This document shows positions 648-45,513 of a DNA stretch of 64,000 nucleotides, piece after piece. The number at the start of each line of letters is the position of its first letter. Within the stretch, counting starts at the first letter, position 1. Source of the stretch: Ilex aquifolium (taxonomy: Eukaryota; Streptophyta; Magnoliopsida; Aquifoliales; Aquifoliaceae); the NCBI GenBank assembly GCA_951799425.1, contig OX637393.1, positions 33,533,244 to 33,597,243 on the forward strand, written 5' to 3'. The position numbers were made by a program, and so were the translations under genes. The notes under the pieces were generated by a model that had not been told where the DNA came from, ran no database searches, and worked only from the letters and a program-made list of their open reading frames with translations.

Positions 648-2021
648 TGTGACGCCCCAAAAACCGGGGGTCCTTTGTCAACCCGTTGATCACCCATCAA
701 CTCGCGAAACACCCGTAGATACCGTGTAACTCGATAACACGCCGTTATGCCCCATTTACCGGGTTCCATAACTTAACAAAATTCAGATTTTACACTTCTA
801 ATCCACTCGGAGTAAGAAATGCATCTACCCACTCAACGATACCCAATTAACGGTCACCCATGTCAATCAAAACATCCACATAAGAGATACAATACCAAAC
901 CAATTCACCAAATCACAGGTAAAACAAGAACCATAATTCCACATGTATTTTTCCAACATAACAACTCAAGAACATATGCAAGAGATCATCAAGAAATATA
1001 ATTTTATTGTTCAAACAAAACACTAGAGTTTTTAAATCAAGAACAATGAAATATTAAAGGTAAAATCTATATTTCTTGAAAATTAGGATTTTTGATATCA
1101 AGAATGAGGTTTTTTATGACTATCAAATGATAATCTCATTCGAGACATGATACGAATTGCACGAAAACCAAGAAACGATGATTTTGTAACATATATATAC
1201 AATTTAGAATCAAAATATACATATATATTAATCCTAGCCTCAATTGACAAATTTAGGAAGAAACCCCTACCTTTAATTCGATGTTTGAAGATAACCCTAG
1301 CGTGTTTGAATCAGTCCAGAAATGAGAATCCTCCTCGTGTCTCCTCTCTTTCTTCCTCTCAAGCTTCCTAGGGTTTTCTCAGATGAACAATTGTTGAACA
1401 CATGCCTAAGGGTCATTCCCTAGGTATTTATAATGCAAAATTTGGAGAAAAACACTCAACACAGGTTGTACAAATTCTGCCCGGTGCGTCCGGACGCATG
1501 TTTCTCCCGTCCAGACGCGTCTGACTTTTTGTCCAGACTTCCGATGACATTTTGACCTAGTTAGAAGCTGATTTACGAAATTTTCGTGAAATACACTTTT
1601 GTAGCTCTGGAAGTCTTATTTCGTGAAATAAACTTTTGGACATTATAATAAAAAGTTATAACGAAAATATTGAGATAGTGTCAAATTTCTTTCTAACCAA
1701 ATCCTCTCCAAAATAGGTTTTAACTTCGGAATACTTCCTAACTTCTAATACACCCCATATTACCTCTCCCAAGGTTTCTCGACCTTCCAGATTCACCGGT
1801 GACCTTATTTTTACCTAAAAACATTCACAAACTTACCTAACCGCCTTCTCAACTTAAATATCTCCATAACTCAATTTATCTCAAACGTAAATACGCACGA
1901 AACTCAAACTTTATAATCAATCTTTCAACAATTATTCTAAGTTTCTACCTTCATTTTATTTATCTTAGGAGAACTCTTAAGATAATATTATCCTTCTTTA
2001 ATTTTAATACGAGGTCTTACA
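648..2021 (-). mobile_element. Shared LTR of tandem element F
   Basis: On the minus strand the LTR starts TGTAAGACC and ends GGGGCGTCACA. A primer-binding site abuts its left end (633-644), and a polypurine-type tract plus 3' internal sequence (from 2022, TTTCGTCCTCGAAA, like 35698-35735 of A) abuts its right end. One LTR therefore serves two elements, the signature of a tandem pair. A TATA box lies at 1424-1434 (minus, TTATAAATACC). Upstream of it is a 14-bp perfect palindrome TGCGTCCGGACGCA (1485-1498) and two degenerate copies GTCCAGAC (1509-1516 and 1531-1538). Confidence 0.85.
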
Positions 2022-2955
2022 ATCCACCCCCTAAAATAAAGTTTCGTCCTCGAAACTTAATCGTCGAGTTAGTCTATCTAATTCTAATTAACAACAAGGT
2101 CTCAACGCATATTCATCCCTTAAACATCAAATCCAACAATAGAATAGAATATCATATTCTAAATTTTAAATCCATCCCTTCCACTTACATCATCATTAAG
2201 TCCCCAAGATTACCTTCCTTCACTAGCATTCATTTATCATATTCATTCTCAATAATTTTATACGATTGTTTCAACTAATTTCTTATTATGCATAACTACT
2301 AGTTCATAAAACTTAATTGTCTACTCATCAAATATCACTTCTCTTTTGAATTTCACCAATCCTTTCAGTAAACCTCATGTTTACTTCTAACATGTAGCTT
2401 ATCTATAAGCATATCAAAACAAATCATATGCAATTCCACTAATAGGGTCACTTATCTTTCTTATACTAACATCATGGTATAACACAAAATTTAGATACGG
2501 TAAGATTTATCTCGACTCTTGAAATAGATACAACATTCTTAATGACTTTATCTCTCACTAGCAAAAAGGAATTCACAATCTTTGAAATCTAACAATAATT
2601 TCAATTCACCACTACACACTCCCACATAAGTCAATATTCTAGGATCAACTCTTAGGTTGCACATCCATTTTCAATTTCTCATGATACTCCTTACCTTCAC
2701 CTTTGTAGTCATTACTCAAATAGTTCGTTGCGCACTCTGATAAAAATTATAATCAACCAATTCACAAATCAAAACTAGCCACAAGATAAGAATTATCATA
2801 GTTTGAAAGTTTTGAAAAGATATGTTAGATTCTACCGAAGTGTACAATTGAAACCTAACCACACTTGTCCTCCAATTACAGCTTCTAAAATGTGTACACT
2901 AACGATCCATCTAATCCATTCAAAGGAAATTTTAGTAATTAACCAACTATACTAC
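2022..2955 (-). mobile_element. Non-coding 3' internal region of tandem element F2
   Basis: This begins with the polypurine-tract complement (ATCCACCCCCTAAAATA) and the motif that follows the PPT in A, so it is internal retrotransposon DNA. No protein similarity is visible in it. It is AT-rich, with many stops in all frames. It resumes after solo LTR H at 5303 and after solo LTR G at 9058. Confidence 0.6.
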
Positions 2956-3475
2956 TGTAACACCCCGCATTTTCTTTTATATATATGTATATAGATATAT
3001 AGTAAATAATTGTTGTAAAAATGTGGATATGTGTAATGATGTAAGAATGAACTATATAGATTGTAATAGTAGGAGAAATGCTAGAAATGCATATTGATTG
3101 GGAAGTTGGAGTTTCCAAGACGTTTAAACTTGGAAAGGGTGATTAGATGAATTTTTAAATATTTTTAGGTCAAAATAAGGTGTCCATTGAATCCAGAAGG
3201 TCGACCAACCTTGGGAGAGGTAATATGAGGTGTATTGGAAGTTAGGAAGATTTTTGGAATGAAAGCACATTTAAGAGAAAACTTGGGTAGAAAGGATTTT
3301 GGACACTTCCTAGTATTTTGATCATAACTTGTTATCCTTATGTCCAATTGATCTGAAATTTTGACAGTGGATAGTAGACATCCAGGGCTACAAAAGTGTA
3401 TCTCACGACAATTTTGCAAATCAATCTCTAAATAGGTAAAAACTTCACTGGAAGTTGCAGCAGAAACAGGAATTC

Positions 3476-3668
3476 CGTTCGAACGTGAATCGACGTTCGA
3501 ACGTGAATAAACGTTCGAACGAAAGTGCGTTCCAGTACTCTTTGTCTGATGGAAAAACAAAAGTACTGAGAGTGACGAACGTTCGAACGCCAATGACGTT
3601 CGAACGTGACTTGCGAATTCTGAACTTCAGAATCGCGCACAGGAGGTCATTTCTTCCACTATAAATAC
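3476..3668 (+). promoter_or_regulatory. CGTTCGAACG palindrome cluster and TATA box of LTR H
   Basis: Five perfect CGTTCGAACG palindromes occur at 3476-3485, 3494-3503, 3512-3521, 3580-3589 and 3597-3606, with start-to-start spacings of 18, 18, 68 and 17 bp. The likely TATA box CTATAAATAC (3659-3668) follows 53 bp after the last copy. The arrangement resembles a promoter-proximal enhancer in U3. The protein that might bind it is unknown. Confidence 0.7.
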
Positions 3669-4228
3669 TTAAGGACACTCCCATTAGCCCCATTTCAACA
3701 TTTCAAACCCTAGGAAGACTTAGAGAGGAGGAAAGAAAGGGAAAACACAAGATCAAAGGAGGATTTGCACCTTGAAGAAGATCAAAACTTCAAGTTTTCA
3801 AGAAAACATAGGAAGAAGAAAAGTAGGGGTTTTCTCTCACTCTCTTACATTGACGCTAGGGTATTTATATATGTATGTTTTGGCTTATAATGGTATATAT
3901 ATGCTATGGAATCATCCTCTCTTAGGCTTTTTGGCAAAGATTACATGTTTTGAACAAAGTTAGGGTTTAATACCCATGAAATCTCTTTTCTAGTTTTAAA
4001 ACCCTAGTTTTTGGGAGAGTGATGTATTTCTTCTTAAATGCTTTCTTCATTATGAACTTCGAAAACCGTAGTTGTTCTGTTGGGTAGAAAAATGATGCTA
4101 TTGTGATCTCATGTATTTTCTTGGTTGGTTGGGGAATTGTTACATGATATATTTTGGGGATGTTGGATAGATGCTTGTAAATTGATAAAAATATTGGAAT
4201 TGTATGCTTGGTTGGGTTGTTTGTGATG

Positions 4229-4676
4229 CCTTGAGGGTAAGAGGTTCCTTATAAGGATGCTCATGCCAAAAGAGGACAGTATGTGATTTCCCTCAAGAGG
4301 TTCCTTATAAGGATGCTTGAGAAACCAAGCCTTGAGGGTGAGAGGTTCCTTATAAGGATGCTCATGCCAAAAGAGGACAGTATGTGATTTCCCTCAAGAG
4401 GTTCCTTATAAGGATGCTTGAGAAACCAAGCCTTGAGGGTGAGAGGTTCCTTATAAGGATGCTCATGCCGAAAGAGGACAGTATGTGATTTTCCTCAAGA
4501 GGTTCCTTATAAGGATGCTTGAGAAACCAAGCCTTGAGGGTGAGAGGTTCCTTATAAGAATGCTCATGCCAAAAGAGGACAGTATGTGATTTCCCTCAAG
4601 AGGTTCCTTATAAGGATGCTTGAGAAACCAATCCTTGAGGGTGAGAGGTTCCTTATAAGGATGCTCATGCCATGGA
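4229..4676 (+). repeat. 101-bp tandem array with CArG-like boxes in LTR H
   Basis: Units beginning CCTTGAGGGT start at 4229, 4330, 4431, 4532 and 4633, exactly 101 bp apart, giving about 4.4 copies. Each unit carries the block GAGGTTCCTTATAAGGATGC twice, 56 and 45 bp apart alternately. The core CCTTATAAGG is a perfect 10-bp palindrome that fits the CArG-box consensus CC(A/T)6GG. I count nine copies, eight perfect and one with a G-to-A change near 4550. The array lies downstream of the TATA box, so it is probably transcribed. Confidence 0.92.
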
Positions 4677-5297
4677 GGACAATATTATATAATGTGTGGG
4701 AAATGGTTTATCTTTTGAAAATGGATGTTTATTAGAATTGGTTATTATTGTTCATTTCTAGTACTATTGCTACTTAAACTTGAGATCCATTGTAAAATGT
4801 CATGGTTTTACTTCAAAGATTATATATGCTATTTGTGAAATGAGACCGGCTGTTTTAAATGCTTTTCTAAACCTTGTATGGGTTTGAGAGAATTTTTCTA
4901 CAGAGCTTCGTGCTCACCCCCTACCGCTAACATTTTTCAGATTACCTGCTTGAGGAGGACGTAAGGGTTGAGGAGCCCGCTACTTGGGAGACTCCACTTG
5001 ACGGGAGTGTGGATCCCGGGGTGGACGCATAGAGCGACCTCCTTTCCTTTTGTACTAGACTAGGACATTCTTTTGGAACATTGTGTAGTCTAGTTTCTTT
5101 TGTTATTCCGCTGCTAAGTTACGTTTGATCCTTTGAGATGTAAATGCCATAGCTTGGCTTATTCTTTTGGGATGATATTGTAAATTCTATGGATGATGAA
5201 TGGAAAAAATTTCTTATTGATGGAATTATATTAGTGCTCTCATGATATGAATGTTTTAGAATGTAATGACGTCCAGGGTGTGTTTTGGGGTGTTACA

Positions 5298-10730: not shown

Positions 10731-11588
10731 TGAGTGCTCAATATTGCATTATTTTATAGCTTAACACATTAGTTTTAGGCTTGCTAACAAACTAACTTGC
10801 TTCACTTAGTGCATATTGTGTCTTATGCTTTGATTTCTATGATTGTAGGTAATTTGGGTGTAAAGCTTGAGATGAAGCATTAATGGGATGGTAAGGAACT
10901 AGTTGGGAATGAGTTTGCTTGAGAGAAGATGAAGCCCGGAGCCTTGGAAGTCATTTTGGAAGAAAAGAGAAGCCCTATTATAGGTGTTATACCAATACGA
11001 AGGAATAAAAATATGAAGGTTATGCCGGTAGTAAGTCATTTCTACCAATAACTTGAGCTACAGAAGAATAGTGCAGAAGTTCTACTGGTAGTTGGTACAG
11101 GTTCTACCGGTAGAAGAACTCACAAAAGTTTACATTTTTTTTTATCAAAGAAGTTCTACCAGTAGTTAATACATGTTCTACCGGTAGAAAAACTTATAGT
11201 AATTTGTCAGAGGAAGTCCTACCGGTAGGTAAATGATGTTCTTCCGGTAGAAAAAGCTACAAAAGTTTTAGAGTTTTCATCAGAACAGAGAACTATCGGT
11301 AGTTTTCACTATTCTACCGGTAGGTCGTGCTACAGGAGTTGCTACTAGTAGATGAAGGAAGGTTTTCATGGGAAGCTCAATTAAAGATCATATCTCACCA
11401 TATCTTTTGGGGATTCTCAACCAATCAAAGGAGGAGATAATTTTGGGATGAATATAGGCAAAGATCTGAATATTCTCCTTCCAAATATTTCCTGAGGATA
11501 TAACCTTGGACTTCGGTTCGAGTTACTACACAATACTATTCTCTTATGCTTTGGAGCACTCGTGAAAATATAACCCCTTTGGAGGGCA
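10731..11588 (+). mobile_element. 5' LTR of element C
   Basis: It starts TGAGTGCTCAATATTGC, matching the 3' LTR start TGATGAGAGCATAATATTGC (18963) loosely. The right end at 11588 is inferred from the position of the primer site. Perfect CTACCGGTAG palindromes lie at 11104-11113, 11178-11187, 11219-11228 and 11314-11323, with several degenerate copies between 11025 and 11350. Confidence 0.7.
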
Positions 11589-17337: not shown

Positions 17338-18603
17338 TGGGTTCTCTTCATCTCTATGGTCCCTCTGATTTTGGTGGGTATGGCCAGAACGTTGGGTGGC
17401 CAGAGGACACCTCAGGCTAAGAGTACCCCAGCGTCTAAGGGTGTGGGTTCTTCATCCACTCGGGCTTCTGCAAAAGAGAAAGGGAAAAGGAAAATGGTGG
17501 TTCAATCAGGTTCTGAGGAGGAGGATGAGGCACCTCCTGTGGTGAAGAAAGCAAAGAAGCCTAAGAAGCCCAGGTACAAGGAGACTATAGAGAAGAGGGG
17601 GTAATCTGTGAGTGGATGGTGGATGTCGATAGCTTAGGTAAGACTCCAGAAATTAGAGTACTTGTTGATAAGGACTAAGGTCCGGGGGAAGGTGATTGAT
17701 GTTACCCTGACCTCTATAGCCTAATACTTGAGCTATACGAGCCCGAAGCCCACTGAGATTGATTATCCCCACATCACTTTTGCTACCAAGGACGTCTCAG
17801 AGTATATAGCAGAGATGTATGAGCATCCTGTGAACTTCAAGGAGAAATTTTTGCATGGTCATTTGGATGGGCATTATAGGTTGCTGAACAAGATTCTCCA
17901 TTATAATGTGTACCCCAAGGGATTAGAGAAGCAACCAGGGATACAGAAGATTGTGTTGTGTTATGAGTTCATGTCAGGGTCAAAGATCGACATCACCTTG
18001 ATGATTTGGGGCATGTTGAGAGACTATTGCACCACACACAGGCTGAAGGGGAACATGCCCTTTGGTAATATGACACTCAATTTTGTCTGAAGCCTGGTAT
18101 GAAGAGATTGGCATCCTACATTATGAGCCCTCCAGAGTTTGGGCCCATAGGCAATGTAAGGGAGAGGAAGAGATCGACTATGTTGAGGGCTAGTGGTTTG
18201 AAAGGCAAGAGTACAACCACTCCTTCCACTGGGACAAAAACTGCTACGGAGACTACCCCAACCTCTCATGCCACTTTGAATCAAAATATAAGCAAGTTGG
18301 AGGAACAACTTGGTTATATAGAGAGGGGGGAGGATTACTATGAGAGCTTTAGAGAGGGTTAAGTCCAAGGTGGACATGTGTGTGGGGATGCTGAGGAGGT
18401 TGTTTGAGCTTGCTTTTCCTAGAGAGGCGATTCTAGAGGAGATGACAGCACCCACTTATGCTTATACTCCTAGATCGCGTTCCACTCCTATTTTTGTTAA
18501 ACCTCTTAGTATGGCTATAGAGAGCACTACTGAGGAGGATAAGGAGTCTTTAGAAGAGGAGGGAGAGAATGAGAGTGATGATGATGGGGATGCATCAGAC
18601 TGA
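17338..18603 (+). pseudogene. Athila third ORF remnant (putative plant transposon protein family)
   Basis: Three open pieces (17356-17604, 17728-18090, 18340-18603) in shifting frames align with ORF3 of B. The first starts best at MARTLGG (17380) and is rich in K and R (KKAKKPKKPRYK). The middle piece shares NKILHYN, YPKG and a helix-like IWG segment with B. The last ends in an acidic tail rich in E, D and S. A basic start, a central conserved domain and an acidic end are thus shared by both elements despite strong sequence divergence. No signal peptide or membrane segment is visible. Function is unknown. Confidence 0.78.
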
Positions 18604-23613: not shown

Positions 23614-23680
23614 GGTTTCGGAAAAACAGAGGGTTTGAATCTTGAAGGAGAAATGCCAATTTCACAGTTCTATGGTTAGG

Positions 23681-23945
23681 AATTTATAGATGAAAGGGGA
23701 AAGGGAACGGTTTGGGTATCTAGGGGGGTTATGGGTGAGAGGGATTTGGAATGGGTTCAATGTATTGTGAGGACACTAAAGAGTCTCTCCGAAAAAACCC
23801 AATTAAAAACCCTAATTTCAGGCGTTCTGACCCTCGGATACCGGTAGCTCGTGCACTGGCTACCGGTAGCTGCTACACCAGAAGCAATTGGCTACCGGTA
23901 GTCAATGCGGTAGCAGCAAATCCAGTGGAATTTGGCTACCGGTAG
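23681..23945 (-). promoter_or_regulatory. Putative internal promoter of ORF3: palindromes plus TATA box
   Basis: The core TACCGGTA occurs at 23839-23846, with CTACCGGTAG at 23860-23869, 23892-23901 and 23936-23945. The surrounding 130 bp is clearly homologous to the LTR cluster (for example TACCGGTAGCTCGTGCACTG at 23839, with one mismatch to 21494). About 150 bp nearer ORF3 the minus strand has TCTATAAATT (23681-23690), a good TATA box, 68 bp before the first ATG. The sequence is observed; promoter activity is inferred. Confidence 0.6.
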
Positions 23946-23965
23946 CTCTGCGGTAGCTGCTTCCT

Positions 23966-29000: not shown

Positions 29001-29102
29001 TTCAAATGTAGGAATCCACTTCTCCACCCCTTTCAAACTTTCCACTTCTTCATGCTCAACAAGCTCTTCATCTTCCACACTCAAAGTGCTCATCAACTCC
29101 AT
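26031..29102 (-). CDS. Athila-type Pol: RT, RNase H, integrase
   Basis: 1,023 codons open from ATG at 29102 to TAA or TGA at 26031. RT occupies roughly residues 110-390: [25 protein letters not shown] and the catalytic VFMDDFSVF (FMDD is usual in this lineage). RNase H lies at about 440-570: [37 protein letters not shown]. The integrase zinc-binding region ([10 protein letters not shown]...CKECDRCQ) is at about 655-705. The core with D, D and E in [15 protein letters not shown] and NREIK is at about 725-850. A C-terminal region with WDGPYLVK follows. The upstream PR ORF is in the same frame, separated only by a TAA (29109-29111). Confidence 0.95.
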
Positions 29103-29108
29103 GTGCTC

Positions 29109-31782
29109 TTACACCACAGTATCAATCCGATTTACCTCATGTGCATCCTCATCATCCCCCGGTTGCTTGCACAGGTTGAACACATTAAGCTCCATTGTCA
29201 TGTTTCCAAATGCCAGCTTCATAAGACCATTCCTGCAATTAATCACAGCATTAGATGTAGCAAGGAAAGGTCTACCTAGTATCACAGGGATTTGAGAGCT
29301 AAGATTAGCAACAGGGTGAGTATCAAGCACAATGAAATCAACAGGAAAGTAAAACTTATCCACTTGGACTAAAACATCCTCAACCACTCCCCTTGGTGTG
29401 CGAACACTGCGGTCCGCCAGTTGAAGCGTGATTGGAGTAGGCTTCAATTCCTCCAGCTTAAGTTGTTGATACACAGAATAGGGGAGGAGGTTCACGCTAG
29501 CACCTAAATCAAGCAAGGCTTGTTCCACCCGGCAATCTCCAATGGTTATGGCAATGGTGGGGCAGCCGGGATCCTTAAACTTGGGAGGAGTGTTAGTCCT
29601 CAAAATTGAGCTCACTTGCTCGGTAAGGAATGCTCTTTTGTGAACATTTAGCCTTCTTTTCACTGTGCACAAGTCCTTCAAGATCTTTGCACAAGAGGGG
29701 ATTTGCTTGATGGCATCCAGGAGCGGAATGTTTATCTTTACCTGCTTAAACAAATCCAAAATGTCAGCATAGTTAGCCACCTTGAGAGGTGGCTTCAAAC
29801 GATTAGGGAATGGGGCAGGGATAGGAAAAACAGTCACACCTTCATCACTCAATTTCTCTTTGTCAACCACCTCACTTTCTTTACTCTCACTCACCCCACC
29901 ACCATTGGTGCTACCCTTAGTCTCTTTCTCAAGTGGCAATGCGACCTTGGGCGAGGCCTTTGGCAACATGGTCTTATTAATTTCCTTGCCACTTCGAAGG
30001 GTAGTCACTGACTTGAGTTGTTCACAACTCTCTTGGGTGGTGTCGGCCAACTCAATCACATTTTGACCTTTAGGATTTTGTTGAGGTTGAGAGGGAAATT
30101 TTCCCTTCTCTTGTTGAGACAACCCAATGGTATTGGTGATTTTGGTGAGTTGGGCCGAAATGTCCTTATTGAAGGTGGTTTGGCTTTGAATGAAGGTATG
30201 GACCACATCTTCTAGACTCCGTTTATGAGGTGGTTGGTAGCTGGAAGAACTAGATGGGCCTTGTCCCGCAAAATTCTGTGGGGGAGGGTTGGATTGGTAC
30301 CCTTGTGGATTGGTCCGTGGGTATTGGGAGCTAGAAGCTTGCCCTTGACCTTGATGTTGTGATTGGTACGGACCTTGCTTGGGAGGTGCAGGAGGTGTAT
30401 ATGTGTTAGAGCCATAGGGAATGGGGTTCTCATTCCTCCAACTGAAATTAGGGTGATCACGATACCCCGAATTGTAAGTGTTGGAATTTGAAGGAAATGA
30501 TTGTCTTGGTTGGTTGAAGGCATTAACTTGTTCATGGTATGCCTCCTTAAGTGCCGGAATGCTCGGACACTCCGATGTGGAATGCTCGACACCACCACAA
30601 ACAGAACAAGCCTCCTCGGCTCTTGACACATGAGAGACATTTCGTCTCCTTTCCACCTCAAGGCTATCCACTTTCCTAGACAATTTGGAAATTTGGGAAA
30701 GTAGATCCTCACGGTCTTTCAAGTCATACATCCCCCCCCCGTGGTGGTTGACTACTACCCGGCATTGTCCTAGGTAAGTCATCCGGATCCTGAACACCCC
30801 AAGTTTGTGCCTTTTCAGCGAGGGTACCAAAATAGTCTAGGGCCTCATCGGGATCTTTGTTCAAGAATTCACCATTGCACATCATATCTATGAATTGTCT
30901 ATGGTCTGGGGTGATTCCTTCGTAGAAGAAAGTCACCAATTGCCATGAGTTAAAACCATGATGTGGTATGGAGTGAAGTAGATCCTTATAACGGTCCCAA
31001 CATTGATAAAACTGCTCATTGGGTTTTTCAGAAAAGTTTTGGATTTCCTTTTTCAAAAAGGTGGTTCGATGAACCGGGAAAAATTTTTTTAAGAAAAAGG
31101 AGACAATGTTATCTCAAGATAGCATAGTCCGTGGTCCCATGGAATCAAGCCACACTCTTGCCTTCCCATCCATAGAGAAAGGGAACAATTTCATCCTGGC
31201 TATCTCTTCCAAATTGTGATTTGGGAGAAACGTTGCAACCATTTCCTCGTAAGACCTTATGTGGTTATACGGGTTCTCATTTTCAACCCCCCTGAATTTG
31301 GGGATTAGTTGCAACATCCACGGTTTTAACACAAAAAGGTGATGTTGGACAGGGAGACGGATGCATGATGGTGTGGTGCTACGGGTCGGTTGAAGGTACT
31401 CTTGCATAGTTCTTGCCTCAAAATCAAGTGGGATGTTCCCTTCATTTCTTGGTGGGGGAAAATGCGCTTGTTGGTTGGGCATTCTAGGTGGTTGCACTCC
31501 CCCACCACCTCGCATATTTGGGTTGACACCCACATTGTCAAATTGATCGGGAGGGGGATAGTGTAATCTTGGGTCATGCTCCCTATATTCGGGCATTCCC
31601 CCACCCCTTTGGTCATTTAGGTTTGCACCTACATTGTCAAAATTCCCACCCCCTTGCATGTTTTGGTTGACAGCTATATTTTCAACATTGTCACCCACAT
31701 TCTCGGGTGGGTCTTGGTCGATATTCATGTTGGGGCCTAAGGGTTGTCTAACTAATCGATGATAGTCGTCCCTTCCCCACAT
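29109..31782 (-). pseudogene. Athila-type gag and protease with two lesions (B)
   Basis: Gag starts MWGRDDYHRLVRQ (31782). An in-frame TGA at 31114-31116 interrupts the capsid-like domain right after GPRTMLS. A G9 run (complement of 30732-30740) shifts the frame by one between the RQFIDMMCNGEF and SQISKLSRKVDSLEV blocks. The following ORF carries a zinc knuckle CSVCGGVEHSTSEC, a long Q/P/S-rich linker, and the protease with LLDLGASVNLLPYSVY and VILGRPFLAT. It ends at TAA 29109-29111. D-L-G-A in place of D-S-G-A also occurs in C. Gag forms the particle shell; protease matures it. Confidence 0.9.
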
Positions 31783-31920
31783 GCAACAAAATATCTATAC
31801 AAATGAAATTATCCAAAACCAAGAAGATGTACACGAGACAACGTACCTCAGCCCGTGATGAAGATCACGGGACTTACCTTGGTTGTTCGAAAATCACTTC
31901 CTTGATTTTACACTTGCCTT

Positions 31921-31940: not shown

Positions 31941-33903
31941 TGATTGTCACAAAAATGATATCTTTCCTAACCCCTAATTACTATCCCTCATGTATGCAAT
32001 GTATGAACGGGGGAGAAGACTTTCTTCCCCTAGGAATAGTGTCAAAATAAAGGGCAATGAGGAAAGGGAAGTGGGACGATGTAAATATGGGATATGTATG
32101 CACAAAAATGCTCCCCAATCGCAAGGAGACTTTTGTGTATTGTGAGTTACTTGGAAGAGTATTCCAAGGTCGTATCCACAGGGAAGGTAGTGAATCAAGA
32201 TTAAAGTGATTTGGTGAAAAACGGAAATGTAAAATCTTTTGTCTTGAGAGTTGATTGGTGAAGTGTATGCTAATGAAAATGTAATGATAAAAACAAGTGT
32301 TGACAATTCCAAGAGATCACTCCAATGGGTATACCACCTCAACTCAAATCACTCCTCCTATTGAGCATGAATGAACGCTTGAATCACGGAAAGCCGAGGA
32401 TGGCATCGATGAGTATCTAAGCATAAACCGTGACTAAGCCTACGGTTTATCAAAGACTCATCGACTAATCCATCTTCTATCCGGTCAAAACGAACCATTT
32501 GACTCTAAAGGGAAAGAGGAGAAAGAGTTGAAATGGTATCCCCAAGGGAGATCCCTCTTGGTCTTGCCAACTAGAGGATTTAGCTACTCATATTTGGAAT
32601 GGAAATAACTATGTAATGGAGAAGCATTGCAAATCTATGAACTTCTAAAGTTACTAAGTATCAGAATTTATGAGCTAAAAGAACATGTATTTAAACCCAT
32701 TGCATAGTTATGAGAAATTAAGAACTTGAAGCATTAATGGTGAAACATTAAATGAGCATTGAACTAACAAAACATGAAGGGAAAACAACATTCATGGCAT
32801 TCAATGAACTACTAAGAGTCTTACTCCAGATTACAAAACAGTGCAGTAGAAGAATATGCAAAAATCACAACTTTCTCTCTCTAAAAACTACTGTTCATCT
32901 TCTTCTCCGCCCAGAGTTTCTCTCTCTAAAAACCCTCTTACAAAAGTGGTCAGTCTAAAAAAAACTGCTTGCTCCTCCTCCCCATCCTTGGAGAACATTT
33001 CTTTCTCAAAAACGTGCCTGGGTATCCCCTGCAGCTTCAGCAGCAGCACCCAGCCTGCCAAGCCTGAACCAATAAGATGCAGCATCCCTCTGCAACCCAG
33101 CTTGCTTTCTTCGTGTAATTTCTTTTGCTATGGAGAAAAACCCCTTTTTCCCCTCACTCCATATTCTGGAGAGGAAGGAGTCTCCTATCTGATTACTGGA
33201 GGGAGACAAACAGGGTATGACAGAGGTGTGCAGAGCTGGTCTGCACACCCAGCAGCTCCTATTTTCTCTTTCTTCAATTAATGCCATGGCTTCAAAGTCC
33301 AAGGATAAAGATATGGAGGGATATTCTGTATGTTGAGCGAGTCAAAGGAGTGAGGGAGACTAGCTGGTGGGGCCCTTGAAGCAGCAGAAACAGTTCAGCA
33401 GAATTTTAGATGAAACAGCATCGGATACCGGTAGCTCGTGCACTGACTACCGGTAGCTGATACACCAGAAACAATTGGCTACCGGTAGTCGTGCGGTAGC
33501 TGCAACTCCAGTAGTATTTGGCTACCGGTAGCTCTGCGGTAGCTGATTCTCCAGTGGTATTTGGCTACCGGTAGCTCTGCGGTAGCTGATTCTCCAGTGG
33601 TATTTGGCTACCGGTAGCTCTGCGGTAGCTGATTCTCCAGTGGTATTTGGCTACCGGTAGCTCTGCGGTAGCTGACTGATGTTGATTCCTTCTTGCTTCC
33701 TTCTTTTAATTCAAAATCAAAGATAGCCCTCATCTCCATTCATCACAGCTTTGAAACAGTCGACATTTGCCTTGTTTAACTGCACAACTCACACATTACC
33801 AATAAGTGCTTGATTAACGCAATTCACATCAATATAATCTCCAAAAATCAATCTAACCCGAGATGATTTGCACAACAAAATATACAAAATTTGGTGTGAA
33901 TCA
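31941..33903 (-). mobile_element. 5' LTR of element B
   Basis: 1,963 bp, the same length as the 3' LTR, with five substitutions seen, for example at the positions corresponding to AAAAACAAGTG and AAAAGTGGTCAG. Palindromes lie at 33426-33433 (TACCGGTA) and at 33447, 33479, 33522, 33565, 33608 and 33651 (CTACCGGTAG starts), 240-480 bp inside U3. Confidence 0.96.
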
Positions 33904-35791: not shown

Positions 35792-38700
35792 CTATAAGAA
35801 TGTACCTCCATCCTCAAATAAGAAAGGATAATTGGCACGTATGGTGTCCTCACGCTCCCATGTTGCCTCCTCCACTCCTCGATGCTGCCACAACACCTTC
35901 ACAAGCCTCACGGTCTTGCCTCGCAAAACCTGATCCCGGCTATCCATGACACGCACTGGCCCCTCCTCAAAGGTTCCATCCGTATCAACAACAAGCTCGC
36001 CCCAATCCACAACATGCGTCGGATCTGGAGTATATTTCCGGAGCATGGAGACATGGAATACCGCGTGAACACCTGATAAAGTTGGCGGTAACGCCAATCT
36101 GTAGGCCACAGTGCCAACTCTCTCAAGTATCTCGAAGGGCCCAATATACCTCGGCGACAGCTTTCCCCGCTTGCCGAATCTGACCACTCCTCTCTTAGGC
36201 ATCACCTTCAAGAAGACATGATCTCCCACCTCAAACTCCAGAGGTCGCCGCCGTCTATCGGCGTAACTCTTCTGCCGGATCTGAGCCGTGAGAAAACGCT
36301 TCCTTATCAAATCCACCTTCTCTGAGGTGTCTCTAATCAAGTCTGGACCAGTAGAGGGTCTTTCTCCAATCTCCGTCCAACAAATTGGAGAACGGCAAGG
36401 CCTCCCGTAAAGCGCCTCATAGGGTGCCATCCGTATGCTCGCCTGATAGCTGTTATTATAGGCGAATTCCACTAAGGGTAAATGCTCTTCCCAGCTACCC
36501 TTGAGGTCTAGGACACATGCTCGTAGCATGTCCTCTAACGTCTGAATGGTCCTCTCCGACTGACCGTCTGTCTGGGGATGAAAGGTTGTGCTCATCCTCA
36601 ACTGAGTCCCCATGGCTCGCTGGAAACTCTCCCAAAAGTGAGCCGTAAACCTGGGATCCCGATCTGATACTATAGATACGGGTACCCTATGCAACCGGAC
36701 TATCTCCCTTATGTACAACCTGCAGAATTCCTCCAGCGAGAAGGTCATCCGCACCGCCAAAAAATGTGCCGACTTCGTAAGTCGGTCCACTATCACCCAC
36801 ATCGCATCATGTCCCCGCGATGTCCGTGGCAAGTGGGTCACAAAATCCATCGTGACGTGCTCCCACTTCCATTCAGCCACTTCCAACGGCTGAAGCATAC
36901 CAGCTGGCCTTTGGTGTTCAGCCTTAATCTGCTGACATGTGAGGCATTTACTCACAAAGTCGCCAATCTGCCTCTTCATCCCGCTCCAATAATACTGGCG
37001 ACGAAGATCATGATACATCTTCGTGCCGCCTGGATGCACCGCAAAACGAGAGCAATGGAACTCCCTGAGAATTTCCTCTCTCAGATCCGCCGACTGGGGA
37101 ACCACAACTCTTCCCCTAAACCGAAGACTGTCATCCGAGTGAATGGCCCAGCCCTCGTCACCAGTACCCGCCTGCACTCGGTCCCTGATGGATGATAACT
37201 CTGGGTCCTGCCCCTAGGACTCAATCACTCTGCTCAGTAGGGAAGGCGTAGCCACCAAGCTCCCTAAAACACCCTGAGTCCGACCCCGATAATGCAGCCC
37301 AAATTGGCCCACGGTCTCAAGCATCTGCCACTCCCGGGAAGCCACACTAGCTAAGACACCCCGTGACTTCCGGCTAAGTGCGTCAGCCACCACATTTGCC
37401 TTACCAGGGTGGTAATGCAAAGTGAAGTCATAGTCTTCTAGGTACTCCATCCACCTACGCTGCCTCATGTTGAGGTCCCGCTGAGTGAAGATGTACTTTA
37501 GACTTTTGTGGTCCGAAAACACCTCAAATTGTTCACCATATAAATAGTGGCGCCAAGTCTTCAAGGCAAAGACAACGGCCGCCAACTCCATATCATGCGT
37601 AGGGTAATTCTACTCGTGATTCTTCAATTGTTGAGAACCATAAGCCACCACTCTCCCGGATTGCATTAAGACACAATCAAGTCCGTCCTTGGAGGCATCG
37701 CAATACACCGTGTAGTTTTGTCCCCTCTCTGGAACAATCAAGATAGGAGCTGAAGTGAGCCTCCTCTTTAGCTCCTGGAATGCCTTCTCACACGAATCAT
37801 TCCACTCGAACTTGACCTCCTTCCGGGTCAATCTAGTCATAGGTGTTGCTAGTCGGGAGAAGTCTTCGATGAATCTCCGGTAGTACCCTGCCAATCCCAA
37901 GAAACTACGTATCTCGAAGACTGACTTTGGCCTCTCCCAACTCATAACTGCCTCAACTTTCTCCGGGTCAACTGACACCCCCGAAGCTGACACCACGTGT
38001 CCCAAAAATTTCACCTCCATGAGCCAAAATTCACACTTACTGAACTTGGCGTACAACTGGTGGTCCCTCAAGGTCTGGAGAACAATCCTCAAGTGACCCT
38101 CATGCTCCTCCTCAGTCTTGGAGTAGATCAGGATGTCATCAACAAACACCACGACGAACTGATCTAAATAGGGTTGGAACACCCTGTGCATGAGACCCAT
38201 GAATGCCGCCGGGGCATTCGTCAATCCAAATGGCATCACAATGAACTCAAAATGCCCGTAACGTGTTCTGAACGCCGTCTTAGGGATATCTGCCTCCCTA
38301 ATCCTCAACTGATGGTAGCCCGTGCGGAGATCTATCTTGGAATAGATCCGCGCTCCCCTCAGCTGATCAAACAGGTCATCAATCCTCGGCAAAGGGTACC
38401 TATTCTTTATGGTGACCCGGTTCAACTGCCGATAGTCTATACACAATCGAAGGGTCTTATCCTTCTTCTTAGCAAACAGCACCGGAGCGCCCCAAGGTGA
38501 AGTGCTCGGTCTAATAAAGCCCTTGTCCAATAATTCTTGTAATTGAACCTTGAGTTCTTGCAACTCAGCTGGCGCCATCCTATGTGGAGTCATAGAAATG
38601 GGCGAAGTACCAGGATGTAACTCGATGCTAAAATCCACATCCCTATGGGGAGGTAATCCCGGTAACTCGTTCGGAAAGACGTCCTCATACTCACACACCA

Positions 38701-39144
38701 CCCGAGGTAGACCAATTCCTGTCTTGCCTCGTCCTCCAGGGTAAGGCTCGCAAGCCAACCCATCAACTGCCCATGCCATCGAGAGTCATACACGGCTTGG
38801 GGCAAAGCATCATGATTTTCCCCCTGAAACTTGAAACAAACACCGTCCGGTGTATAGGCAATGACCCTCTTCCTATCACAATCAATGACGACCCGATGTG
38901 CCGCCAACCAGTCCATCCCAAGGATGACATCGAACTCCGACATGTCCATAACCCTAAGGTCCACGGTGAGTAGAATCCCCGAGATCTCTAACTCACAACT
39001 CCGACATATCTGATTCACACACACCCTAGCTCCTAGGGGTGAATTCACATACAACGGCTCTTCCAAAGTATCAACCTCTAAGCCCAAATCCCTCACACAT
39101 GATGCAGAAATGAATGAATGTGATGCACCAGAGTCAAATAACAC
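35792..39144 (-). pseudogene. Tekay-type PR-RT-RNase H-integrase-chromodomain (A)
   Basis: Protease: LFDSGASHSFIS at 39144 onward. RT (38779-37610): [29 protein letters not shown] and the catalytic [11 protein letters not shown]. RNase H continues at 37591 with [18 protein letters not shown] and DHKSLKYIF. Integrase (37177-35792): HPGGTKMYHDL, CLTCQQIK, the D-D-E core (TMDFVTHLP, VSDRDPRF, SERTIQTLED) and GPFEI. A C-terminal chromodomain (KVLWQHRGVEEATWE) marks the chromovirus clade. Lesions: a one-base frameshift near 38710 between PR and RT, and in-frame TAG codons at 37610-37612 and 37214-37216. The chromodomain of such elements is thought to steer integration to heterochromatin. Confidence 0.93.
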
Positions 39145-39189
39145 TTTAGCCCATAAGCGAGAAAGTAGAAATGTACCCTGAATGACCGA

Positions 39190-40377
39190 CTAGTCCACTG
39201 GCTCAGCCTGAGGTGTAATGGCGTAGACACGCCCTTGGGTCCCCGAAGTCCTGGCCTGCATGCCCTGCCCTCGGCCTCGACCCATGTTTTGGCCCATCTG
39301 GCCCGACTGCGGAGTCCCCGCTCGAAAAGTGGTAGGGACCTGAGTAGTGCCCTGGAACTGATACTGGCTTCCCTGGCCCATGGTGGGGTAGGGAGGAACA
39401 AAGTGTGTCTGTGACTGTCCCACTGATGACTGGGACTGAGATGTCCCATAGCTCTGGGATCCTTGCCTCTGCAGACAATCCCGCTTCATATGCCCCGGTT
39501 GGTGGCAATGGAAACATGTCTTCTGGCCTGCCTGGTAGGTAGTCCTGAAGTTTCTCCCGCCCTGGGAAAATTGACCTTGGCCTTGGCCTTGATAGCCGCG
39601 GCCCTGTCCTTGAGGAGCAGAGGTCCTCTGCTTCTTCCCCGAACTAGAAGAAGAGGATTGGCCCTCCTTCTTCTTATCCTTGGCACCCGCCTCACGGATG
39701 CTTCGTGCATCGTCAACCTCCCTCTCAATGGCCATAGCTGTCTCGACCATAGAGTCCAAGTCTTGTAGGCGGAGGCCCACAATCTTCCCCCGGATGGATA
39801 GTTTCAATCGATCCTCAAACCTTCTTACCTTGGCCATATCCGTGGCCACGTAATCATCAGCAAATCGGGCTAATTCTGTGAACTTAGCCACATACTCCAT
39901 CACAGTCATTGACCCTTGCTTCAATTCTAGGAATTCTCGGGCCTTTGCATGTCGAACGGCCGTTGGGAAATATTTACCCATGAAGAGCTCCTTAAACTCT
40001 CCCCATGTCATGGCCTCTAAGTTCTTCGAGGCCGTCACCCAATCCCACCACAATTGGGCTTCTCCCTCTAACTGGAATGCAGCTAGTCTTATCTTAGTAG
40101 CATCTGAGGTGACCTCCATTGCTCCTAAGATTTTGTTGATTTGCCGGAACCAATAGTCGGCCACCATCGGGTCCGCCCCTCCCATAAAAACTGGAGGTTT
40201 GTGTGCTTTAAACTGTTGGAGGTTACTCGTGCCCCCATGCCCGGCATTTGCACAAGCTTGTGCAACAGTAGCCACCATCATGCCCATGGTTTCCGTAAAC
40301 GCTTGTTGATCGAAGACCGGTGGTGGTTGATTATTGTTCCGCCCACCGTCTCGACGTCCTCTTCTCCCACTTGCCAT
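39190..40377 (-). CDS. Tekay-type Gag (A)
   Basis: 395 codons from ATG at 40377 to TAG at 39190-39192. The capsid-like retrotransposon gag domain covers about residues 70-200 (YWFRQINKILGAM, LWWDWV, FMGKYFPTAVRHAKAREFLEL). A Ser/Lys/Gln/Gly-rich linker follows, then a CCHC zinc knuckle CFHCHQPGHMKRDC near residue 290. The protease ORF follows in the same frame after the TAG, so the gag stop is either a mutation in a single gag-pol ORF or a readthrough site. Confidence 0.93.
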   Translation of the reverse strand: MASGRRGRRDGGRNNNQPPPVFDQQAFTETMGMMVATVAQACANAGHGGTSNLQQFKAHKPPVFMGGADPMVADYWFRQINKILGAMEVTSDATKIRLAAFQLEGEAQLWWDWVTASKNLEAMTWGEFKELFMGKYFPTAVRHAKAREFLELKQGSMTVMEYVAKFTELARFADDYVATDMAKVRRFEDRLKLSIRGKIVGLRLQDLDSMVETAMAIEREVDDARSIREAGAKDKKKEGQSSSSSSGKKQRTSAPQGQGRGYQGQGQGQFSQGGRNFRTTYQAGQKTCFHCHQPGHMKRDCLQRQGSQSYGTSQSQSSVGQSQTHFVPPYPTMGQGSQYQFQGTTQVPTTFRAGTPQSGQMGQNMGRGRGQGMQARTSGTQGRVYAITPQAEPVD

Positions 40378-40731: not shown

Positions 40732-41804
40732 TGTGACGCCCCAATTTCCGGGGGTCCTATATTAACCGTTGACCAACCGTCAACCCGCGAAAGTATCCGT
40801 GAATGTCCCTTAAACCCGACACCACGTCAACTAACATTCCTTTAACCAGAATCATAACCCACAACTGTAAATTGAAATCAATTATTCATTTGGTTTAACC
40901 AAGACCCAACGCACCTTGATTTACACTCCATTATAGTCCATTTACATCATTGGAGGAAGGGAAAACATAGATTGAAAATAGGGCAAAGCAATTTAAAAAT
41001 CAGTAAATTTTGGAGAGTGTACCGGTACACAGTACCGGTACTGTTAACCTACTGGAAAGGGGGTACCGGTACACAGTACCGGTACCATACTGTACCGGTA
41101 CCCAGTACCGGTACTCTCTGTCCAGTTTTGCCATTTTCAACCATTTTTTCATTTCCAATCCATTCAAAACCTTTCCCAATTCATCAAATACATGTTTGAC
41201 AAGGATTTCCATATAAAACATGGTTTGTACAAGTTCTATTACAATTGATTCCATATATTTACATATCAAAATGGAATTCTTACAAAAGCTTTACAAAATA
41301 ACCATAAAAGCCACAAGTCGGCTTTCTTCAACCTTGAGGCTCGAAATGGGAGCCGTCCGCCAGTGTAAACCCCGCACCTAAAATGTTTTTCCCACAAAGG
41401 GTGAGCCACGCTCAATAGGGTATCTCCTAATGAGGCTACTCCCCAACCTAAATGCATATGAAATGTTCACATGCCAAAATCAACAATTCATAACATTCCA
41501 AGCAAGGAAATATATTCAATGATGGAATTTGCAATGCCATGCTATGGAATGAGGTGAGACCCACTCATGCATATCAACCGAGCCCTTCCCGGCTCCTCTA
41601 CACATGCAAGTGCCAATGTGTACCAATCCGTCATTTATGTTGCACATCAAATGACATTTCATTATAGGGTCTTTATAGGGGTGGATGTTCATGGACTCAC
41701 ACCAAAGGTCACCCAACCTACACAGAATTCATGGACTTCTACCAACGGTTCCGCGTACACCGACACACTTTATGGGCTCATATACCAACGGAGTGCGTAT
41801 CCAA
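40732..41804 (-). mobile_element. Truncated 5' LTR of element A
   Basis: Matches the left LTR from its start through GTGCGTATCCAA, then stops. In the intact copy the next bases are TCACCGGG (34391 onward). About 1.3 kb of LTR is missing, including U3 and the promoter. The break joins an orphan B-type LTR (D). Confidence 0.92.
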
Positions 41805-41806: not shown

Positions 41807-43027
41807 TGATTGATTGGAAACTATGTCTTTCCTAACCCCTAAAATGCTATCCCTCAAATGATGCAATGTATGAGCGGAAGGAAGGATTTCTCCCCCTTTG
41901 GGATAGTGTCAAAACAAAAGGGCAATGAGGAAAGGGAAATGGGATGATGTAGATATGGAATGTGTATGCACAAAAATGCTCCCCAATCGCAAGGAGACTT
42001 TCGTGAGTTGTGTTTTACTTGGAAAGTATTCCAAGGTCGATTCCACAGGGAAGGAAGTGAACCAATGTGAAAGTGATTTGGTGAAAAACGGAAATGTAAA
42101 ATCTTTTGTCTTGAGAGTTGGTTGGTGAAGTGTATGTTAATGAAGATGTAATGATAAAACAAGTATTGGCAATTCCAAGAGATCACTCCAATGGGTATAC
42201 CACCTCAACTCAAATCACTCCTCCGATTGAGCATGAATGAACGCTTGAATCACGGAAAGCCGCGGATGACGTCGGTGAGTATCTAAGCATAAACCGTGAC
42301 TGGAATGCAAGGCAATGTACTGGAAAATAAGTGAAAATTATAAATTTCTCTCTCTAGAATCTACTATTCATCATCTCTACGCTTGGAGCCTCCCTCTCTA
42401 AAAACTCTCTCATGTAATATATATTCCCCTCAGCCATGGAGAACCCTCTACATCAAAACGTGCCAAGGGACAGGGGTAGCCCTGGAGATGTGATCTCCAT
42501 CAAAAGGTTGCAGGTGATGGCTTGGACAGGGCATGGCAGGGCACTCCTCAAGACCCAGCAGCTCAACTTCTCACTCCTCTCATTAATGCTCTCTTGCAAT
42601 CAATAGTCTAAAAGAGGTGTGAACACAATGAATAGTGTTGTGGGCTTGCAGGAGGCAGGTGGGAAAAGACATGGTGGGGTCCACAAAAATCGGCTGAGAC
42701 AAGTTCGCAGAATTTGGGCAAAATTCCTTCGGGCGTACCGGTACGCGTACCGGTACGCAGCACACCAGTAGGGTCAGCGTACCGGTACGCGTACCGGTAC
42801 GCTAGCCCTTTTTTTTCCTGAATTTCTTCCTGTCCTCCCCTGTTGAGCTTGCCTTTGGTTTTCCTTCACCCTTATTCATCTTGATGTATTTGAGAAGCCT
42901 CAAGATGGTTATGTTGCGCACTTTTACCCTGCAATCATCAAATGCTAAATTGAGAAATTATGAAGTAAAACTCCATCTTTTAATTATAAAAACCATTCAA
43001 TTAACATTGATTTGCACATGTGAATCA
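41807..43027 (-). mobile_element. Orphan Athila-like LTR D, related to LTR B
   Basis: Starts TGATTGATTGGAAAC and ends CATGTGAATCA. The blocks CTTTCCTAACCCCTAA, AATGCTCCCCAATCGCAAGG and CAAATCACTCCTCC match LTR B. It is 1,221 bp, about 740 bp shorter than B, mainly because of a deletion near 42300. The bases before it (CCAAAA) match the PBS-side bases of B. This suggests that it was the 5' LTR of an element whose body was deleted. Its cluster consists of four GTACCGGTAC palindromes at 42735, 42747, 42779 and 42791, two pairs each 12 bp apart. Confidence 0.87.
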
Positions 43028-43124: not shown

Positions 43125-43285
43125 AGCTACCCGAGCCGTCGCCCAAGTGACCCGAGCCGTCGCCCAAGTGACCCGAGCCGTAGCCCAAGTGACCCGAGTC
43201 GTCGCCCAAGCAACCCGAGGCATTACCCAAGTGATCTGAGACGTCACCCAACCGACCCGAGACAAAATCCATGTGACCCGAAGTA
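43125..43285 (+). repeat. 21-bp minisatellite in unit 1 of array I
   Basis: About seven to eight units of the type ACCCGAGCCGTCGCCCAAGTG, degrading to the right. Equivalent arrays occur at about 48388-48520 and 52760-52890 in units 2 and 3. Because 21 is a multiple of three, long open frames result on both strands. I do not regard these as genes. Confidence 0.85.
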
Positions 43286-44450
43286 ACGCCTTCTCCGTCG
43301 ACGCCTGTACCCTGGGCGCCGCCGCCAACGAGGCCAGCCCCTCCCTCATCGGTGTGTCCCTCTCGGGCATCTCTAGCGCCCAGCGACACCCACTTGTTAA
43401 TTGGCTAAGGATTGACTCGGGACCTAGAAACCTATTGAAACTCTACTCTAAGTATCAAGGACTGTTGATAAACAATGCCTCCTAGCGAGCACATCTCATC
43501 CTACAATTTAGGACTCAACGTCCTAATACGACTCTACCTCGAATGTCTAGGGAATTGGTGATGAGGTCTATCCTATCACAACCTGAAATTCAAGTCCATG
43601 TGGAGCACCGTTTCCTATACCATTATGAATAAAGGTTCCAGATACCATGTATGTTATGGAATTCTAGCCTATTCACCATATACTTTTTCTTCAACTTGTT
43701 TACTGATTTAAGCATCGGAGTCCCTTTGGCCGCCTCCAGCCATTGGTTCACCTAGATTTTCTCTTGTCTTGCAAGTTTACCAAAACTTCCCCGCCATCAT
43801 CTTTGTTTGTACAAGGCGGTCGAAATTGAGCGGGCAGCAAGAATAAGAATCAACCTCTAAAACATATGTTCTCTGGCCTCACATGGATTGCAGTGTTGAA
43901 CTGATCCTCGAGCTAATTGGAATCCTTGAATTTGACTAGGGAAGGGTCAGCGCCACCCATGCCTCACTACCCAACAGTGCTCTCATGCAAGAACCTTATA
44001 TCTCTAGCTGCCAGGAAGCTCGGCCTAATCCTGCCTCTGCTCTCAAGCAGTCTATATCTCCAGCTTCGCACTCTCTCGCGAGTCGCCAGGAAGCTCGGCC
44101 TAATTTTACCTCTGCTCCCAAGCAACCTCAGTCTCCAGCTTAGCACCTCCATCACGAGTCGTTAAAAAGCTCAGCCTCACTCAGCCTCTACTCTCATGCA
44201 TGGGAGTCTACATCGCCATAGGAGTTCTGGGAATCTACACCACCACAGGGATCCCGGGAGGAAATGTCACGAGCCCCTGCACTCGCCTGCTCAGTGCATA
44301 ATGCCTCCACCCACCATGAGGCAAGCCAAACACTATCCCGAGAAAGCCCGACATCTCGGAGATATCTCCACAGGCCTTGGGAGACCACACTCCGAGACTA
44401 GAGGCGCCCGACTCCTTTGCCTACTCTACGGGAGCCCTCTGTGCCCTCGC

Positions 44451-45513
44451 TGATTAAGGTCCAATATTTACCTTTATTACTGGGAAGGATTAATCATTTA
44501 GTTATGAAAGTATGATAAATATGGGAGATTATTTAAGAACTGGTGTTATGCTAATAAAAGATAAATTGTGTTTATTTTGCAGGAGAATAGCATAAAATTG
44601 GGAGAAAGTACGGAAAGATGAAGCATAGTTGAGGAGGAAGCATACTGGAATACGCGTCCGGACGCAAGTGGCAGAAAGCAAAGAAGCAGAAAAGGAGTAC
44701 ACTGGAAGTCGCGTCCGGACGATTGAAGAATGCGCGTCCGGACGCGTGTATTGGTCTGCCAACGCCAGATTAAGAATTTCAATATAATTGAATCTTTTCT
44801 CAGAAGAAATATATAAATAGGAGCTGAAGACCATGTAAAGGGACGACTTTTTTTTGCTTAGGAACTTTTTAATTTTAGCTTTAATTTTTGTTGATCATGT
44901 TTGGCCAGAAGGCTAAACTAGGGCTAGGGGAGAACCTCTCAAGGAAGTACGGTAACGTTATTGATTCTGAATTTAATGATTTATGATGTTTTGGTAATTT
45001 AACTTCTGATATTTTAGCAAAGTTTTTGTTCTGTAAAAATCCTTGAGTTGTTGTACTATGTACATCAATTGCTTGAATTTCCCTGCGAGTAAATAACTGG
45101 TTATTCTATGCTTGAGGTAATTATCATTATTTCGTAAAATAATATAATTGGGCGATTATTCAGGTTCTTGAATAATTCGTTGATTATAACTTTTGGTTTT
45201 CGTACTTGACTTTTAATTGAATCAACCGACATCTGATTCTTGTCTCAAGTTAATATTTGAGTCTTTAATCGTTATAGTACGGAATTGAGAGGGAGTACCT
45301 AACGCTCTAGTTTATTTATTACTGTTTTAATTATTTAAATCAATTTTCTCCATTCAACAATTCCTTAAACAAAATCATTTATTTTTAAGTTTGTTTTAGT
45401 ATTTGTGTGATTGCTTTCTTGTTACAATTCCTTGAGGGTTCGACCTCGGTATTCCGAGAAGTATATTACTTCGCTCAACTTGCGCTTGGGTTTACAATAA
45501 AAAAGTTGAAGCA
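44451..45513 (+). mobile_element. Solo LTR E with CTCGC target duplication
   Basis: 1,063 bp, TGATTAAGG...GTTGAAGCA, flanked by CTCGC (44446-44450 and 45514-45518). The homologous sites in units 2 (about 49712) and 3 (about 54055) are uninterrupted, so this is a clean insertion. TATA box ATATAAATAG at 44811-44820. Upstream are three perfect palindromes: GCGTCCGGACGC (44654-44665), CGTCCGGACG (44712-44721) and CGCGTCCGGACGCG (44733-44746). Family not assigned. Confidence 0.94.

Follow-up and report, generated by a model that had tools for sequence, protein, structure and literature searches.

Background

The nearest cis-element precedent for the palindrome clusters described here is the RM boxes of Sirevirus retrotransposons, and their nearest functional analogue is the VANDAL/VANC system. 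The clusters lie in long terminal repeats (LTRs) of two kinds of Ty3/gypsy-type elements, Tekay-like and Athila-like, within 64,000 nucleotides of Ilex aquifolium (GCA_951799425.1, contig OX637393.1, positions 33,533,244 to 33,597,243; hereafter "the window"), and recur in front of an accessory gene whose product carries the domain PF20167 (Transposase_32). As described by Bousios et al. 2010 (PMC2829016), RM boxes are likewise clustered, element-specific palindromes. They precede a conserved TATA box in the LTR, and additional clusters stand before the env gene, as here before the PF20167 gene. They are described there from Ty1/copia only and were absent from the classic elements compared, whereas the present arrays belong to the two Ty3/gypsy kinds. 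The RM core is mostly CGG-CCG; of the palindromes found here, CGTTCGAACG and GCGCCTAGGCGC lack it, and TACCGGTA and CGTCCGGACG have CCGG. Unlike RM boxes, the present arrays are exchanged as cassettes in one LTR backbone, shared between kinds of elements and linked to PF20167 clades.

VANDAL elements, as presented in PMC5735166, also have short motifs repeated in non-coding regions and differing between related elements, and VANC motifs occur in the unrelated transposon AT9TSD1 as well. VANDAL is a DNA transposon with non-palindromic motifs (YAGTATTAY, AGTTGTCC), and binding and demethylation by VANC were shown experimentally, whereas PF20167 is a candidate for such a role. The 3' accessory open reading frame (ORF) of sunflower Athila shares the Pfam domain and the 3' position with the gene described here; it has a predicted nuclear localisation and an unknown function, and the available portion of that report (PMC11728184) makes no mention of a promoter array or of motif matching. 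Two further papers mention an internal promoter region for Athila6A (PMC4977677) and recombination between Athila families (PMC2410132). No description of PF20167-linked palindromes or of cassette swapping in Ty3/gypsy LTRs was found in the literature as represented by titles and the beginnings of abstracts, subscription papers falling mostly outside this scope.

Palindrome arrays in the LTRs of the window

The original prediction named CG-centred palindrome clusters in eight LTRs, A to H. All of them were located in the window, and one cluster had been overlooked (23859-23946, inside element B, before the accessory gene). The label Tekay-like (A, G, F, H) follows that prediction, the LTR ends, the TGGTATCAGAGC primer-binding site adjoining them and the Pfam domains of element A, and Athila-like (B, C, D, L021 and others) follows the prediction, gene order and the presence of PF20167 as in sunflower Athila. 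L-numbers denote stretches of the same genome outside the window. The arrays in LTRs are:

1485..1523, minus strand: array F, one CGTCCGGACG (TGCGTCCGGACGCA at 1485-1498) plus decayed copies, in a Tekay-like LTR
2956..5297, plus strand: LTR H, apparently solo, with ends TGTAACACCCC...GGGGTGTTACA
3475..3607, plus strand: cassette of LTR H, five CGTTCGAACG (3476-3607), homologous to the PF20167 promoter of L021
6558..7700 (approximate bounds), minus strand: LTR G, homologous to LTR A; array at 6887-6999 with four CTACCGGTAG
11102..11351, plus strand: array C, four CTACCGGTAG (11102-11323) plus decayed copies
19701..19799, minus strand: array of LTR A, 3' copy, six GTACCGGTAC; host LTR split by the inserted element B
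21515-21729, minus strand: array of LTR B, 3' LTR, six CTACCGGTAG plus one TACCGGTA
33447-33661, minus strand: array of LTR B, 5' LTR, six CTACCGGTAG plus one TACCGGTA
41017-41115, minus strand: array of LTR A, 5' copy, six GTACCGGTAC, within the 5' LTR (40732..41804) of the Tekay-like element A
42733..42803, minus strand: array D, four GTACCGGTAC, in an Athila-like LTR
44654..44746, plus strand: array E, three CGTCCGGACG; LTR homologous to that of PF20167 clade 377

Palindromes of at least 10 bp were counted after removal of simple-repeat palindromes and compared with 20 dinucleotide shuffles, both in the window and in a sample of 20 stretches of 10 kb (200 kb) at fixed places on contigs C1-C7 of the 800 Mb genome (103 contigs). 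The window contains 53 CG-centred palindromes against 8.4 expected (shuffle maximum 12), which form 10 clusters against 0.00. Counts for other centres are 13 vs 12.6 (GC) and 26 vs 24.0 (AT), with 0 and 2 clusters, and TA-centred palindromes are in slight excess (29 vs 20.3, maximum 28) with no cluster. The sample holds 41 CG-centred palindromes vs 19.6 and 5 clusters vs 0.00, confined to three of the 20 stretches (L007, L010, L021) and composed of GTACCGGTAC, CTACCGGTAG and CGTTCGAACG; a mild excess is seen for AT- and TA-centred palindromes (120 vs 93.0 and 107 vs 75.5; three clusters and one), and GC-centred ones form no cluster in window or sample. Across the genome, 6,405 places have a CTACCGGTAG pair (gap 5-30) and 32,874 a GTACCGGTAC pair (gap 1-31), against 0 and 1 for the reversed-pattern controls. 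Clustering exceeds shuffled sequence, as predicted, and extends beyond the few copies first named. Base composition is ruled out as its cause by the dinucleotide shuffles, a peculiarity of the window by the 20 other stretches and the genome counts of the two words.

The CG centre holds for all clusters named, though not universally, one lineage elsewhere using the TA-centred GCGCCTAGGCGC. The spacing of 12-18 or 30-40 bp that had been predicted does not apply throughout: the distance between centres depends on the palindromic word, with 12 bp in D, 23 bp in E and 43 bp in most of B, and 17-19 bp is favoured by neighbouring CGTTCGAACG (48 of 85 pairs). Of the 63 copies of the TACCGGTA core in window and sample, 59 have complementary bases at the outer pair (38 C..G, 21 G..C), and C..C or G..G never occurs. 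Recognition by a dimer, which we infer, would be the natural reading of such perfect dyads. The word ACTGGA/TCCAGT stands among the palindromes in six of 13 cluster stretches (A, B in both LTR and internal array, E, H and L010c), and its variants CTACTGG and CACTGG are frequent between paired sites in the genome-wide pair lists; it may be the site of a second factor.

Arrays upstream of PF20167 genes

Two features of element B concern the accessory gene, which is placed between pol and the 3' LTR:

22312..23661, minus strand: accessory ORF of element B, 450 open codons, likely ATG at 23544, encoding protein P0001 (PF20167, E 6.5e-20)
23834..23963, minus strand: internal array of element B, three CTACCGGTAG at 23859-23946, before the accessory gene

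The internal array matches a portion of the LTR B array at 92% identity (130 bp) and is followed by TATAAA at 23688-23683. L026, a further copy of the B type, has the same two-array layout. In L021 the PF20167 gene, whose identity to the gene of B is just 26%, has CGTTCGAACG upstream, and this element's 3' LTR contains nine CGTTCGAACG copies followed by TATAAATAC. L021 (2857-3276, minus strand) and the start of L077 also possess a small Cys/His-rich frame (CKQCGRVFH...) in the interval separating pol from the PF20167 promoter; by eye, a comparable sequence is present ahead of the clade 406 promoter.

The match to PF20167 reaches 72.2 bits in P0001 and 92 bits in P0002 (curated cut-off 45). For P0001-like genes, 94 of 5,956 first-look candidates were scored and 20 upstream stretches, spanning 55-93% identity, were fetched; 17 of these contain CTACCGGTAG, compared with 1.8% of 750-bp sample windows. 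For P0002-like genes, 89 of 7,500 were scored (18 without internal stop), and all 15 upstream stretches fetched possess three to ten CGTTCGAACG, with TATAAA 13 or 30 bp past the last copy. The PF20167 family set (150 scored of 6,661) was represented by 20 stretches chosen from clades defined by frame length. Seven CGTCCGGACG precede the gene in clade 377 (2/2), one CCGTCCGGACGG in clades 406/399 (3/3), two or three TA-centred GCGCCTAGGCGC in clades 422/418 (5/5), 8-mers of CAGCGCTG only in clade 407 (three of five), and one or two TGATCGATCA in AT-rich DNA in clades 384/389 (3/3). A palindrome core is repeated at least twice in 15 of 20 P0001-like, 15 of 15 P0002-like and 9 of 20 PF20167 family stretches; by the same measure shuffles give 0.00, 0.00 and 0.05, and sample windows 3.0, 1.9 and 3.5%. 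Thirteen of the 150 family rows, all of the 377-amino-acid clade, have an identical score of 111.5 bits and are spread over many contigs, suggesting that the clade expanded in a recent burst.

LTR and PF20167 promoter carry the same word in seven of the eight Athila-like lineages in which both were read, two of the seven being weak cases; the eighth is the decayed C. The words differ between lineages: CTACCGGTAG in B, GTACCGGTAC in D, CGTTCGAACG in L021, CGTCCGGACG in c377 and GCGCCTAGGCGC in c422. The weak cases are c406, with a single perfect copy of CCGTCCGGACGG each in LTR and promoter, and c407, with the 8-mer CAGCGCTG and its half-sites (AGCGCC). In c377, c422, c406 and c407 the adjoining 3' LTR was read in one element each, and a TATA box follows the array in the LTRs of the first three. 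For the D type, an LTR pair 11.45 kb apart was located, and a 1.2 kb stretch lying some 1.9 kb ahead of the 3' LTR, its position set beforehand from the layout of B, was retrieved. This stretch (L087) contains three GTACCGGTAC, spaced 32 and 12 bp as in LTR D, and then a PF20167 frame with 41% identity to P0001 (116 residues); LTR and promoter were read in different copies, whose LTRs are 98% identical. The words of B and D differ by one symmetric base pair.

LTR and promoter arrays of L021, c377 and c422 align mainly at or next to the palindromes (scores of 58, 67 and 51 vs shuffle maxima of 30, 25 and 28). Over seven clades, protein similarity correlates with half-site similarity (r 0.69; reached by 16 of 5,040 permutations, or by 8 of 720 once c407 is dropped). 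For this comparison the half-sites were assigned manually and P0004 was used in place of D; linkage inside elements could yield such a correlation as well. We propose that specificities diversify in parallel with the PF20167 clades.

Exchange of cassettes between LTRs

Eight LTRs do carry clusters, as predicted, but they are not eight independent families: outside the clusters A and G are about 75% identical, F and H about 75%, and B and D about 89% over 480 bp. This homology makes the differing words of these pairs the more telling. LTR H, with CGTTCGAACG, is 88.5% identical to the L010 LTR, with CTACCGGTAG, over H 1-511, and homology resumes at H 699; between these points the cassettes score at shuffle level (12 vs a mean of 15.6). 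H and L001 are 78.9% identical, with a break at 511, resumption at 695 and a cassette score of 14 vs a mean of 14.8. F, with CGTCCGGACG, is homologous to H before the cluster (244 vs shuffle maximum 41) and around the TATA box after it (64 vs 34), with no homology inside the cluster (13 vs a mean of 11.7). These comparisons together indicate that one Tekay-like backbone holds three words. Shared LTR descent is thereby rejected as the cause of the clusters in F/H and H/L010, since homology is broken at the cassette. The fast turnover under a preserved palindromic form that had been predicted is borne out by these homologous backbones with sharply bordered, different cassettes and by accessory-gene lineages with palindromes of their own.

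Words are also common to both kinds of elements, again as predicted, the TACCGGTA, CGTTCGAACG and CGTCCGGACG classes each occurring in Tekay-like and Athila-like elements among those read. The closest case is the cassette of H, which is 77.4% identical to the PF20167 promoter of L021 over 137 bp (Smith-Waterman score 130 vs a maximum of 39 in 300 shuffles; z 10.2 with the palindromes masked). One blastn parameter set gave no match for this pair, and the relation is clear with another blastn setting and with Smith-Waterman.

Possible function and alternative explanations

We consider, with a probability of roughly one half, that the clusters are upstream activating arrays for a dimeric trans-acting factor, most likely the PF20167 protein itself, and that Tekay-like elements exploit this factor. 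The arrays sit in the LTR, often with a TATA box a short way downstream, and the internal PF20167 promoter has an array of its own. Each array would be read by a dimer specific for its word; the PF20167 protein would be an autoregulatory activator or anti-silencer recognising its own LTR and its own promoter, and Tekay-like elements without a PF20167 gene may profit from it once they have acquired or evolved a cassette that matches. The interpretation given in the original prediction is partly supported overall, and its analogy to VANC now has a candidate protein, encoded by the element and with the array in its own promoter. Promoter activity, which we infer, is suggested by TATA boxes at most 100 bp past the last palindrome in eight of the 13 LTRs read, three of them among the eight of the window: TATATAAAT 65 bp downstream in E, TATAAATA 54 bp in F and TATAAATAC 53 bp in H. 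The background is 5.5% (TATAAAW) or 11.4% (TATAWA) of sample windows, and the eight cases are not independent, as F/H/L001 and E/c377 are homologous.

In favour of PF20167 as the binder, P0001 and its relatives begin with a basic N-terminus and end in an acidic tail, the sunflower relative is predicted to be nuclear (PMC11728184), and the c422 and c407 proteins have weak, sub-cut-off matches of coiled-coil type (ZapB, E 0.15 and 0.0033). Two protein searches returned six relatives in all, the nearest named one from Rhododendron molle (30% identity), and a scan of viral contigs with P0001 found no relative.

Several results weigh against activation by PF20167. Domain searches detected no known DNA-binding domain in PF20167 proteins, and a sequence search of the PDB gave no relative at E <0.5 (best 0.58). 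The 55-62% lineage comprises 11 stretches, and in the seven inspected by eye (L037, L038, L039, L041, L043, L045, L046) an upstream ATG seems to extend the protein by a hydrophobic, membrane-like N-terminus, which would resemble an envelope protein more than a regulator. No consensus TATA follows the array in the stretch read of LTRs A, B, C and G, and in LTR D it lies 311 bp from the array. Upstream of P0001-like genes, L039 and L041 retain only the TACCGGTA core of a decayed array and L038 has no array among the 20 fetched; in the family set of 20, L080, L082, L070 and L071 have none, and L072-L074 have just one or two TGATCGATCA in AT-rich DNA without a clear array. Linkage of LTR, promoter and gene within a single element means that the concordance with clades may stem from co-inheritance or array conversion. 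With H and L021 set aside, the remaining 79 of 80 comparisons between Tekay-like and Athila-like arrays reach z values of at most 3.8, with little alike beyond the palindromes; flanks being hardly similar, the shared words may there be convergent or old. To our knowledge, Sirevirus elements have no PF20167 gene, yet they carry comparable arrays.

The most serious competitor, which we rate somewhat lower than activation by PF20167, is a family of dimeric host transcription factors for which the arrays would be enhancer sites, lineages converging on words or swapping them and the accessory gene using a copy of the LTR enhancer. It would accommodate the use of the same core word by the Tekay-like element A, which has no PF20167 match, and by other Tekay-like LTRs, and also the fact that arrays of different lineages are mostly alike only in their palindromes; analogous palindromic boxes in Sirevirus (Ty1/copia) LTRs and env promoters (PMC2829016) point the same way. 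A conserved host factor would not, however, require words to differ between close relatives and to track PF20167 clades, and a literature text search for the words gave nothing relevant among the matches listed. Improbable by comparison is that recombination or gene conversion within the element alone made the arrays alike, word differences being neutral drift of tandem repeats. Tandem units exist within several arrays, and the 92% identity of the two arrays of B fits such a process; the concentration of similarity in L021, c377 and c422 at the palindromes and their neighbourhood, the symmetry kept in 59 of 63 TACCGGTA copies and the sharp cassette borders do not.

Two further explanations appear very improbable, to about the same degree. 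One is that the palindromes form hairpins which feed or evade silencing by small RNAs. Such a role has reportedly been suggested for the LTR palindromes of maize Sirevirus; palindromes of neighbouring sites could pair, and the arrays do lie in LTRs. Ten-mers with a zero loop are poor hairpin formers, however, and hairpins account neither for the place upstream of TATA nor for the 17-19 bp spacing of CGTTCGAACG nor for clade-specific words. In the other, the central CG would be what functions, and a host protein that is either methyl-sensitive or methyl-specific would read it. Exchange of C to T at the central CG is found in eight of 19 one-mismatch copies of window and sample, which are not independent of each other, and in several decayed copies near 19223-19415. 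Such decay affects only five of 18 (P0001-like) and three of 29 (P0002-like) one-mismatch promoter copies, though, the outer CG decays more in P0002-like promoters, the palindrome of the c422 lineage is TA-centred, and CG decay is expected in any methylated transposon.

Elements and further repeats of the window

The elements bearing these arrays have the following parts:

17371..18191, plus strand: PF20167-like remnant of element C, 30-38% identical to P0001
20009..21971, minus strand: 3' LTR of element B, Athila-like, 99.7% identical to the 5' LTR
26034..31794, minus strand: gag-pol of element B, with protease, reverse transcriptase (RT), RNase H and integrase domains
31941..33903, minus strand: 5' LTR of element B, Athila-like
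35795..40377, minus strand: gag-pol of element A, with Retrotrans_gag, RVT_1, integrase and SH3_Tf2-1
40732..41804, minus strand: 5' LTR of element A, Tekay-like

RT, RNase H and integrase of element B lie in one frame in Ty3/gypsy order, and the element is inserted into an LTR of element A, in which no PF20167 match was found. The remnant of element C has a single decayed motif upstream (17147), which leaves the idea that it keeps an array unsupported; the several decayed copies at 19223-19415 are probably its 3' LTR.

Positions 4228-4672, inside LTR H and past its TATA box, are occupied by a 101-bp tandem array that includes TCCTTATAAGGA palindromes. At about 8912-8925 of L010, a second Tekay-like element (LTR end TGTGACGCCCC) starts exactly at the TATA box (CACTATAAA) of the H-like LTR. 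The region 43049-57000 of the window holds a tandem array of three units, each of about 4.35 kb and with subrepeats of 21, 75 and about 80 bp; LTR E is inserted in the first.

Implications

In a wider interpretation, to which we give slightly less credence than to the activating role of the arrays, PF20167 proteins may be fast-diversifying, transposon-encoded, sequence-specific dimeric regulators, each reading the palindrome of its own LTR and promoter, that unrelated retrotransposons hijack or evade by swapping whole cassettes while the rest of the LTR stays the same, giving a lock-and-key network between lineages of a single genome. Seven protein-motif pairs, including those of the relatives B and D, have been defined, which makes the proposed recognition directly testable. 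If true, it would provide a function for a plant transposon protein family of unknown role, extend activation or anti-silencing of the VANC type to retrotransposons, and amount to regulatory parasitism between lineages by way of modular, swappable cis-elements.

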